Part shown: piece after piece, positions 22,013 through 25,338 of the stretch
How the letters are laid out: the number at the start of each line of letters is the position of its first letter
How positions within the stretch are numbered: the first letter of the stretch is position 1
Origin: a bacterium
Lineage (GTDB): Bacteria > Patescibacteriota > Saccharimonadia > Saccharimonadales > Saccharimonadaceae
Direction: 5' to 3'
Assembly: GCA_030429975.1 (NCBI GenBank)
Contig: JAUIGB010000007.1
Coordinates: 1-43,253, forward strand
Length of the DNA: 43,253 nucleotides
The notes under the pieces: generated by a model
The model's input: the letters and a program-made list of their open reading frames with translations, nothing else
Databases searched by the model: none
What the model was told of the DNA's origin: nothing
Program-made: the position numbers and the translations under genes

Positions 22013-22042
22013 TTGCAAAATAACAGGGGAGGGCGTTATAAT
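22013..22042 (+). promoter_or_regulatory. Promoter of the ileS leader, overlapping the previous terminator
   Basis: TTGCAA (22013-22018) and TATAAT (22037-22042) are 18 bases apart. The -10 box is inside the loop of the terminator hairpin that ends the DoxX gene. The transcript should start near 22049. Confidence 0.65.
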
Positions 22043-22061
22043 AACAGAGACGCCCTCTTTT
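22029..22061 (+). terminator. Terminator of the DoxX-like gene with a promoter in its loop
   Basis: GAGGGCGT (22029-22036) pairs perfectly with ACGCCCTC (22050-22057); TTTT follows. The 13-base loop carries the next -10 box. Confidence 0.75.
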
Positions 22062-22240
22062 GGTAAAAGAGGATAGTGGCCATCAACCATCAATGTCATT
22101 GGGAAGAAAGGCTTAGCGCCAACTAGAACCCGACGTGTACGCGACGACATAGCGATCAATTAAGAGCCAAAGAATCACTTCTTTTGGAAGCCAGATGGAA
22201 CCGCCCGAAAGGGTTCTGGCGGACAAAAGAAGTGTTTTTT
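22049..22240 (+). promoter_or_regulatory. Structured leader RNA of the ileS operon; T-box candidate
   Basis: About 190 bases of non-coding leader with riboswitch-like logic. (1) CCTCTTTT (22054-22061) pairs with AAAAGAGG (22065-22072). (2) A terminator forms from CACTTCTTTTG (22176-22186) and CAAAAGAAGTG (22224-22234) followed by six T. (3) AAAAGAGG can instead pair with CTTCTTTT (22178-22185), breaking the terminator. A Stem I-like helix is TAGT/GGC (22074-22080) with GCC/ACTA (22118-22125), enclosing two ATC (Ile) triplets. TGGAACCGCC (22196-22205) resembles the T-box consensus TGGNACCGCG. A T-box senses uncharged tRNA, which fits ileS downstream. Against it: tRNA-Ile usually has A73 and would predict TGGT, not TGGA. 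Confidence 0.55.
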
Positions 22241-22255
22241 ATGAAAGGAATCAAT

Positions 22256-22471
22256 ATGACAGCCGAGAAGCTCGATAATACACAGGATAATCTACCTCTT
22301 GACAGAGAGGCGGTGGTTGAAAAGTTACGACTTTTTGGAATTGATGTGTATCGCTCTGACTTTACAACCATGATGGACGAGGATGTTATCCAAGTTGCCG
22401 ACTGGCTATTAGAATCGGCAGGATATAACGTAGTTGATGTTGATTCCGATAACAATGGAGAACAACGCTAA
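22256..22471 (+). CDS. Small conserved-looking acidic protein upstream of ileS
   Basis: A 71-residue acidic protein I do not recognise. It has a helical pattern (REAVVEKLRLFGIDVYR, DVIQVADWLLESAGYNVVDV) and no membrane segment or cysteine. ATG 22256 has AAAGGA at good spacing; ATG 22241 would start right at the terminator's T-run. Its TAA shares an A with the ileS ATG (TAATG), so ileS is translationally coupled. It may be a dedicated coupling ORF or a small partner of IleRS. Confidence 0.65.
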   Translation: MTAEKLDNTQDNLPLDREAVVEKLRLFGIDVYRSDFTTMMDEDVIQVADWLLESAGYNVVDVDSDNNGEQR

Positions 22472-25338
22472 TGAAATTTAAATCAGGAACCAGGCGACGC
22501 GCCGCCGAATACGAAAAAGACATCGCCCAGCAATGGAAGCGTAATAAAACCTTTGAAAAATCGGTTGAGCAAAGACCTGCCGATAATAGCTACGTATTTT
22601 ATGATGGCCCACCTTTTTTGACCGGAACTCCGCACCACGGTCATCTTCTAATATCCACAGTTAAAGATTCCGTTGCACGGTTTCAGACCATGTTGGGACA
22701 TCGCGTCGAGCGTCGATGGGGATGGGATTGTCATGGGCTACCCGCTGAGTTGTTTGTAGAGAAAAAATTAGGGATAGAGAGCAAGAAGGAAATTGGAGTC
22801 AAGATTAGCGTCGCGGACTACGTCAAAGAGTGCCGTGCCGCTATGGTAAAAACTGGTACTGAATGGGAAGACACCATTGAGCGCCTAGGTCGTTGGGTGG
22901 AATTTCAGGGTGCATACAAAACCATGGATCCTGAATACATGGAAAGCGTCTGGTGGGCGTTCAAAAAATTATACGAAGACGGCAAAATCTACGAGGGCGA
23001 AAAGATTCTAGTCTACTGCACCAAAGACGCTACTCCTATTAGCAAGTCAGAGGTGGCCATGGAAAACAGTTATCAAATAGATACCGATCCAAGTGTATTC
23101 GTATATTTTCAATTAGAAGATTCAGATGAATATGTGCTGGCCTGGACGACTACACCGTGGACATTGCCCGCAAACGTTGCGCTGGCTGTAAATCCAAGCC
23201 TAGATTACGCGCTCGTCGAGTACGATGGCAAGAAGGTCTATGTGGCAGAGGACGCCATAGAAAAAGTGTTTACAGACAAAAAGCATCAGCCTCTAGATTA
23301 CAAAAAGCTAAACACACTAAGTGGTAGTACGCTTGTAGGGCGCAAGTACCATCCACTATTTGAAAATCACGGACCTCAGGCTCATCGCGTTTTGGCGGCG
23401 GAATTCGTCACGGCCGATAGCGGTACGGGCATAGTGCATCAAGCACCTGCCTATGGCGAAGAAGACTATGAACTTTGTAAACGAGAAGACGTGCCTATCG
23501 TTTCACTAGTAGATGAAAACGGAATATATACCCAGGGTCCGTGGCAGGGAAGTAATATTTGGGACGTGAACAAGGAAATTGCCAAGACACTAGTGCATGA
23601 CGGCCGGGCGTTGAAAATGGAATATATTCGTCACGAATATCCGCACTGTCATCGTTGTGGTAGCAAACTAATGTACAGGGCCCATCCAAGCTGGTTTATG
23701 GATATCGAGGGACAACGACAGCAGATGCTAGATGCCGTCGAAAAAACCAATTGGGTACCACAGGCGCTTCGCGATGGTCGTTTTCGCCACACAATAGAAT
23801 CGGCACCAGATTGGAACCTATCACGTGATCGATATTGGGCAACACCTATACCGGTATGGCGTGGAGTTCGTAATGACGGGACTCAAGTCGTCAAGGTAAT
23901 TGGTTCGTATGATGAATTTGCCGATCTAACTGGCAAAAAACTGGATGACTATCATCTGCCAAACGTCATGGACGTCGAGTTCGAGTACGATGGCGTGATT
24001 TTGCGACACATTGGTAAGGTTCTGGATTGTTGGTTTGAAAGTGGCAGTATGCCATTTGCGCAGTTCCACTATCCATTTAGCAAAGACAATGAATTTGATC
24101 CGGAAAATCCCGCGGCTGACTTTATTGTTGAAGCTATAGATCAAACGCGTGGCTGGTTCTACTCGATGACCGCCGTAAACGTTGGACTTTTTGGCAAGGC
24201 GCCTTTCAAAAACCTTATCTGTACAGGTTTCATAAATGCGGCTGACGGCAAGAAAATGAGTAAAAAGCTCAAAAACTACACCGATCCAATGGAACTGATG
24301 AACCAATACTCGTCCGATTCATTCCGTCTATTATTGTTGTCGAACCCGGTAGTTGGGGGTGAGGACTTTAACCTAAAAGACAAAGACGTTGGTGACGTGG
24401 CGCGAAAACTAGGCATGATTTGGAATATGTACGACTTCTTTACTATGTACGCCGAAGTTGATGGTTGGGAATTTGATTCATCAAAGCCATTCACATTGAA
24501 TCCGGATGACCTAGAAAATCCGCTGGATAAATGGATTGTCAGTCGAGTACATCAGCTAGCCAGCGACGTTCACGAAGGCATGATGAAATATCAGCTGGAT
24601 AAGGCTGTAAAGCCAATATTCCCATTTATAGACGATGCGAGCAACTGGTTTGTGCGGCGCAGTAGGCGACGTTTTTGGAAGTCCGAGGATGACGGTGACA
24701 AGGCAGATGCATACCGTACTTTGCATTATACGTTGATGAAGCTTTCGGTAGTCCTGGCTCCGTTTACGCCGTTTTTGGCAGAGGAATTGTACCAAAAACT
24801 AGGTGGTGGCAACGAATCTGTACATTTGTTGGATTGGCCCAAGAATTACAGCGTTGACGAACAGGTGTTGTCCGACATGGCTACGGTTCGCGAGTATGTT
24901 AATCAATCGCTAAGTATACGTTCATCAGAGAGGGTCAAGATTCGGCAACCACTATCTAGTGTCACGGTTCCAACTCTAGGAGAGAGCGTTAATTTCGAAG
25001 ATATCTTGACCGAAGAGTTAAATGTTAAAAAGGTGCTTCAAGGTGATGAATTATCTTTGGATATGAAGATAACACCCGAGCTAAAGCGCGAAGGTCTCAT
25101 GCGCGAGGTTATTCGTCATGTGCAGACCGCCCGCAAAGACGCTGGTTTGAATGTTGACGATAGGATACGATTGCACCTTGGTTCTAGTGACGAACAATTA
25201 CAAAAGGCTATAGAGGAACACCAATCGACCATTTTATCTGAAACCCTAGCGACCGAACTAGTCAATCATACGTTCGATTACAAAACGACTGCGCAGGTAG
25301 AGGATGCCCATCTGTCGATTTCACTGGAGAAGGCATGA
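22471..25338 (+). CDS. ileS: Isoleucyl-tRNA synthetase, eukaryote-like (type 2)
   Basis: A 955-residue class I synthetase. The HIGH motif is in GPPFLTGTPHHGH (HHGH at 55-58) and KMSKS appears as KMSKK at 595-599. The CP1 editing domain is intact in length and has the AWTTTPWTLPAN motif. The GPPF-TG-PHxGH form is the eukaryote-like IleRS clade, which in the family is often less sensitive to mupirocin. The C-terminus lacks an obvious zinc-finger cysteine set. It overlaps the Nudix gene by ATGA. Confidence 0.96.
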   Translation: MKFKSGTRRRAAEYEKDIAQQWKRNKTFEKSVEQRPADNSYVFYDGPPFLTGTPHHGHLLISTVKDSVARFQTMLGHRVERRWGWDCHGLPAELFVEKKLGIESKKEIGVKISVADYVKECRAAMVKTGTEWEDTIERLGRWVEFQGAYKTMDPEYMESVWWAFKKLYEDGKIYEGEKILVYCTKDATPISKSEVAMENSYQIDTDPSVFVYFQLEDSDEYVLAWTTTPWTLPANVALAVNPSLDYALVEYDGKKVYVAEDAIEKVFTDKKHQPLDYKKLNTLSGSTLVGRKYHPLFENHGPQAHRVLAAEFVTADSGTGIVHQAPAYGEEDYELCKREDVPIVSLVDENGIYTQGPWQGSNIWDVNKEIAKTLVHDGRALKMEYIRHEYPHCHRCGSKLMYRAHPSWFMDIEGQRQQMLDAVEKTNWVPQALRDGRFRHTIESAPDWNLSRDRYWATPIPVWRGVRNDGTQVVKVIGSYDEFADLTGKKLDDYHLPNVMDVEFEYDGVILRHIGKVLDCWFESGSMPFAQFHYPFSKDNEFDPENPAADFIVEAIDQTRGWFYSMTAVNVGLFGKAPFKNLICTGFINAADGKKMSKKLKNYTDPMELMNQYSSDSFRLLLLSNPVVGGEDFNLKDKDVGDVARKLGMIWNMYDFFTMYAEVDGWEFDSSKPFTLNPDDLENPLDKWIVSRVHQLASDVHEGMMKYQLDKAVKPIFPFIDDASNWFVRRSRRRFWKSEDDGDKADAYRTLHYTLMKLSVVLAPFTPFLAEELYQKLGGGNESVHLLDWPKNYSVDEQVLSDMATVREYVNQSLSIRSSERVKIRQPLSSVTVPTLGESVNFEDILTEELNVKKVLQGDELSLDMKITPELKREGLMREVIRHVQTARKDAGLNVDDRIRLHLGSSDEQLQKAIEEHQSTILSETLATELVNHTFDYKTTAQVEDAHLSISLEKA

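Follow-up and report, generated by a model that had tools for sequence, protein, structure and literature searches.

Comparative evidence for a divergent tRNA-Ile T-box upstream of ileS in Saccharibacteria

The window analysed here is a stretch of 43,253 nucleotides from a Saccharibacteria-like genome, and all the features described below lie on its forward (+) strand. The gene ileS occupies positions 22471 to 25338 and was identified with the TIGR00392 equivalog model (814 bits, cut-off 621), in agreement with the first-pass annotation, which had placed ileS downstream of a riboswitch-like leader. A small ORF of 71 amino acids without a Pfam match (22257-22471) lies between the terminator of this leader and ileS; in tblastn searches it matched the window's own genome only, and none of the loci of 30 relatives. 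Further upstream, a consensus scan located a promoter-like site, TTGCAA-N18-TATAAT (22013-22042), with 10 of 12 matches, from which a transcript start at about 22049 is predicted; the -10 TATAAT is kept in same-genus relatives. An inverted repeat, GAGGGCGT...ACGCCCTC, with TTTT after it (22029-22061) places this hexamer in its loop, an arrangement that the same-genus relatives also retain, so that the terminator of the upstream gene seems to overlap with the promoter of ileS. The leader region itself folds better than shuffled sequence (z -3.0).

When 198 genomes of the same family were searched at the DNA level, 64 of them, from 28 of 61 genera, proved to carry the leader; 30 of the loci were read, and in nearly all of them it adjoins ileS. 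These 30 leaders were aligned with MAFFT, the alignment not being fitted to a covariance model, and the covariance model built from them found matches in 261 of the class's 393 genomes, which fall into 119 of its 153 genera. In a set of 80 named Saccharibacteria ileS loci, where the genomes are named Candidatus Saccharibacteria, Saccharimonadia, TM7 or Patescibacteria and others just 'bacterium', the element was present at 77, always upstream of ileS and on the coding strand, and it lies 62 nt or less from the ileS start in 52 of the 77. About one third of the Saccharibacteria loci carry extra sequence, often one gene, between the T-box and ileS. The genes found there (L237 1872, L238 1838, L297 1980 onward) encode a 3-methyladenine glycosylase (PF03352) and a cupin, and another one a possible CYTH-like protein without a Pfam match; they would share the isoleucine switch.

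In the MAFFT alignment of 30 sequences, 93.3% of the cells are paired and 21 of 38 pairs show compensatory changes, values that were reached by none of 500 shuffles, and slid controls drop to 36-46% paired. For the 77 sequences, the corresponding values are 96.7% of cells paired and compensatory changes at 31 of 35 pairs, with a covariation score of 0.669 against at most 0.118 in slid controls; this second alignment was fitted to the covariance model, so that its counts lean towards the structure, and it shares some sequences with the 30-leader set.

The element opens with a short Stem I of 4 bp and a 7-nt apical loop (22076-22079/22087-22090), which is 100% paired with compensatory changes at three of its four pairs in the 30 sequences, and 99% paired with changes at all four in the 77. 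The first-pass annotation had drawn a Stem I-like helix at 22074-22080/22118-22125, and this was wrong. The loop of the supported Stem I holds the isoleucine specifier codon AUC (22082-22084), invariant in the leaders compared (30/30 and 77/77 Saccharibacteria leaders, in all 107/107 before ileS). It is followed by Stem II (22099-22133), whose lower helix (22099-22103/22129-22133) and upper helix (22110-22112/22118-22120) are supported by covariation, and which carries the S-turn strands AAGAA (22104-22108) and CUAGAA (22123-22128); the motifs of the two strands are found in 102 and 104 of 107 sequences. A Stem IIA/B pseudoknot (22134-22154) comes next, with helices IIA at 22134-22136/22144-22146 and IIB at 22140-22142/22152-22154, and two-sided changes were seen in both helices in the MAFFT alignment.

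The 3' half of the element begins with an RRRNG purine string, AAGAG (22162-22166), a motif of which a similar form occurs in 104 of 107 sequences. It lies 5' of Stem III, a helix with one bulge (22167-22174/22179-22187) that covaries in the 77 sequences and is followed by AA (22188-22189), so that the order 5'-RRRNG-Stem III-AA-3' is found at 22162-22189. The antiterminator hairpin (22190-22220) consists of helix A1 (22190-22195/22215-22220) and helix A2 (22203-22206/22211-22214), 99.6% and 94.2% paired in the 77 sequences, both with compensatory changes; A2 ends in a G.U pair that is frequent among the leaders. Between A1 and A2 lies the T-box bulge UGGAACC (22196-22202), and a 7-nt UGGN bulge was present in 167 of the 167 leaders examined. 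The UGGN of a T-box bulge pairs with the NCCA end of a tRNA. The antiterminator is enclosed by an intrinsic terminator (22174-22240), whose core of 11 perfect base pairs (22176-22186/22224-22234) is followed by a U tract (T6 in the DNA, 22235-22240); this helix is 97.9% paired in the alignment, with compensatory changes at 5 of 11 pairs.

The Rfam check that had been proposed for this leader gave no T-box match in the window, either at the gathering score or at E 10. The single Rfam match in the window was a miRNA and was judged meaningless. This lack of an RF00230 match in the window itself, together with a T-box call that is based on comparing sequences, would suit a chance resemblance to a T-box, the hairpin being an ordinary one for constitutive termination or for processing; however, the entire five-domain architecture covaries and homologous leaders elsewhere carry specifiers fitting other synthetases, and we give this explanation practically no credence. 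Judged by comparison, the leader at 22072-22240 is best read as a real, strongly conserved RNA, a divergent but bona fide T-box for tRNA-Ile. In this the first-pass annotation, which had suggested that a Saccharibacteria-like genome might carry a divergent T-box upstream of ileS, is upheld by the covariation, the invariant AUC, the 7-nt UGGNACC bulge, the sub-threshold RF00230 matches in relatives and the fact that the relatives are named Saccharibacteria.

The switch proposed in that annotation fared differently. It had AAAAGAGG (22065-22072) pairing either upstream with CCTCTTTT (22054-22061) or downstream with CTTCTTTT (22178-22185), and a sequence check found all three segments at these positions, as it did the perfect 11-bp terminator with its six-T tail and the T-box-like TGGAACCGCC at 22196-22205. 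On these grounds AAAAGAGG might be the antiterminator of a riboswitch of a new kind whose three pairings exclude one another, since 8 bp of complementarity with 22178-22185 do exist in this genome; yet the pairing of AAAAGAGG with CTTCTTTT is not conserved even among same-genus relatives, in most of the 30 relatives whatever lies upstream of Stem I pairs with this arm no better than shuffled sequence, and the adjacent 5' strand of Stem III does the job, with covariation. We find such a riboswitch hardly credible. The 5' hairpin formed by CCTCTTTT and AAAAGAGG (22054-22072), seen in the sequence and in the MFE fold, is lineage-specific, lies outside the conserved T-box and is not kept in relatives. 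It is Stem III, and not AAAAGAGG, that competes with the terminator; covariation among ileS leaders, named beforehand as a check, was obtained for the T-box helices, while the switching helices and the Stem I first proposed remain without support.

The alternative between Stem III and the terminator is seen in most of the leaders compared. In all of the 30 and in 65 of 68 Saccharibacteria leaders, the stretch that follows A1 forms strong pairing with the Stem III region upstream, with mean energies of -19.2 (30 leaders) and -14.4 kcal/mol (68 leaders), compared with -5.6 and -5.9 for shuffled sequences, and the nested terminator topology is present in 95 of 98. A canonical terminator, with the 3' strand of the antiterminator as its 5' arm, was found in none of the 30 and in one of the 68 Saccharibacteria leaders, with energies equal to those of the shuffles; as a positive control, several long T-boxes from elsewhere in the Patescibacteria do yield canonical terminators by the same method. 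Outside the class, the nested helix occurs in about half of the leaders and the canonical terminator in a few. The 3' arm of Stem III overlaps the 5' arm of the terminator in 91 of 97 leaders, so the comparison marks the two as mutually exclusive, just as it supports the helices, the specifier, the bulge and the terminator. A1 and A2 can, as far as their pairing goes, persist in both states, and the choice would lie between Stem III and the terminator.

As the leader ends in an intrinsic terminator, it is taken to be a transcriptional T-box. The Class III T-boxes described so far, with an ultrashort Stem I, are translational (PMC7583486, PMC10482949), and by analogy the leader could be a T-box descendant that binds tRNA-Ile and acts mainly on translation, its hairpin being a sequestrator rather than a terminator. 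Against this, the hairpin of 97 of 98 Saccharibacteria leaders is followed by a U tract, and its pairing stops before the ribosome-binding region; in the window, the hairpin and its U6 end just before the ATG at 22241, with the SD-like AAAGGA unpaired downstream. We regard translational control as unlikely. A tRNA-Ile T-box riboswitch controlling transcription of the ileS operon, in which the choice between Stem III and the terminator is the switch, is in our judgement very probable.

For a leader with UGGA rather than UGGU, the first-pass annotation had raised the question of another ligand. The tRNA genes were read locus by locus, which yielded a tRNA-Ile(GAU) gene in 11 related genomes, and each of these genes has A73. 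UGGU, the majority form in the class, fits A73, and the window's UGGA mispairs with it. A leader sensing a tRNA other than tRNA-Ile, such as one with U73, would account for the pairing of UGGA with UCCA ends, and the tRNA-Ile gene of the window's genome is indeed absent from the assembly: neither tRNA-Ile(GAU) nor tRNA-Ala(UGC) is among its 39 tRNAs. These two genes stand side by side in relatives, and in the window's genome they probably sit in an unassembled rRNA operon. However, AUC is invariant in the class, the regulated gene is ileS, and four genomes (G007, G039, G058 and G127) combine a UGGA T-box with a tRNA-Ile(GAU) bearing A73. We consider a different tRNA very unlikely; A73 in these UGGA-bearing relatives, together with the UGGU majority, suggests that the window's UGGA is a tolerated mismatch and not the sign of another ligand.

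For the tRNA-Ile T-box, we infer tRNA binding, sensitivity to charging and termination in the cell, and propose the following course of events. The leader would bind the anticodon of tRNA-Ile(GAU), and an uncharged tRNA would use its 3' end to pair with UGG in the 7-nt bulge that separates A1 from A2. This pairing would stabilise the discriminator together with the purine string and Stem III. The 3' arm of Stem III (22179-22187) would be unavailable for the terminator as long as that helix is formed, and ileS would thus be transcribed. With charged tRNA-Ile the discriminator would not be held, the 3' arm of Stem III would pair with 22224-22234, and the terminator would close around the antiterminator hairpin. 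By energy, the terminator state is favoured over the Stem III state by about 11 kcal/mol, and the ON state therefore depends on help from the tRNA or from the order of folding.

By published descriptions, the leader has much in common with the Class III T-box, the short-Stem-I type known from ileS of Nocardia farcinica and Mycobacterium tuberculosis (PMC7583486, PMC10482949, PMC7778990): a short Stem I with AUC in its apical loop, no IDTM, the Stem IIA/B pseudoknot, Stem III with the purine string, the 7-nt bulge between A1 and A2, and ileS downstream. The S-turn motif of its Stem II is as in N. farcinica ileS (PMC7583486). The apical loop, with 7 nt, is slightly larger than the 5-6 nt described for Class III. 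Further differences are that the leader ends in an intrinsic terminator, whereas described Class III members act translationally, by SD sequestration (PMC7583486, PMC10482949), and that its host belongs to the Saccharibacteria (Patescibacteria), while the Class III ileS T-box is from Actinobacteria. With the canonical transcriptional T-box of RF00230 (B. subtilis tyrS, glyQS) it shares the UGGNACC discriminator, a terminator with a U tract, and a synthetase operon with a specifier codon that matches the gene; unlike that T-box, it lacks a long Stem I and an IDTM. In the textbook T-box, the 5' arm of the terminator is the 3' strand of the antiterminator (PMC7583486), whereas the terminator of this leader uses the 3' arm of Stem III and encloses A1 and A2.

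Leaders of this kind are also found elsewhere in the Patescibacteria. RF00230 matches the leader of one relative over its full length (40.4 bits, E=1.6e-5). Of 20 leaders taken from further lineages of the Patescibacteria it matches 14, with up to 74.9 bits (E 2e-14); all 15 of these matches, at 30-75 bits, are below the gathering score of 93. In a phylum-wide sample, 94 of 287 Patescibacteria genomes had RF00230 matches, nine of them over the cut-off. Among the control genomes, only 2 of 14 reach the cut-off, and the C. glutamicum control also gives an RF00230 match; with so few controls reaching it, we take a miss at the gathering score to reflect the limits of the model; passing that score does not define a T-box. 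In leaders from beyond the class, the specifier agrees with the gene that follows, with AUC before ileS, GUC before valS, ACC before thrS, and GAC or AAC before a non-discriminating aspS; in L211, AAC precedes a bacterial-type aspS. This agreement is strong evidence of function, independent of the Saccharibacteria alignment. These leaders share with the Saccharibacteria form the S-turn, the pseudoknot, RRRNG, the T-box sequence and the synthetase genes, and differ from it in their varied specifiers (GUC, ACC, GAC, AAC) and in that some are longer elements with canonical terminators.

In the open-access literature we found no relevant report of T-boxes in Saccharibacteria, Patescibacteria or CPR, and the short-Stem-I model of TBDB was searched only in Actinobacteria, besides Class I matches with a truncated Stem I (PMC7778990). 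We consider it likely that the Patescibacteria (CPR) hold a phylum-wide, unreported set of T-boxes, most of which the Rfam gathering score hides, and that the Saccharibacteria form is an ultrashort transcriptional T-box that switches by a new topology, its terminator enclosing an intact tRNA-binding hairpin, with the decision made at Stem III. The elbow-binding domain of Stem I has been described as essential for transcriptional T-boxes, and T-boxes as regulators of Gram-positive bacteria (PMC7583486); both statements would be challenged by a compact T-box that acts on transcription in bacteria which depend on a host and have minimal genomes. The Stem III switch offers a testable alternative to the textbook exchange of antiterminator and terminator, and the leader a very small natural tRNA-sensing terminator. 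Epibionts obtain amino acids from their host, and the leader suggests a way in which they could sense isoleucine starvation.

T-box regulation in the Patescibacteria appears, from the genes that follow, to extend beyond the synthetases. Long T-boxes (L303, L309, L311, L320, L321 and L324) precede genes that were identified by eye as argininosuccinate synthase, tyrS, proS, hisS and anthranilate synthase, and some Patescibacteria genomes have 5-7 RF00230 matches each. Near aspS of another Patescibacteria genome, L212 carries at 1195-1249 a sub-threshold match to a type III hammerhead ribozyme (37.4 bits, E 1.8e-4).
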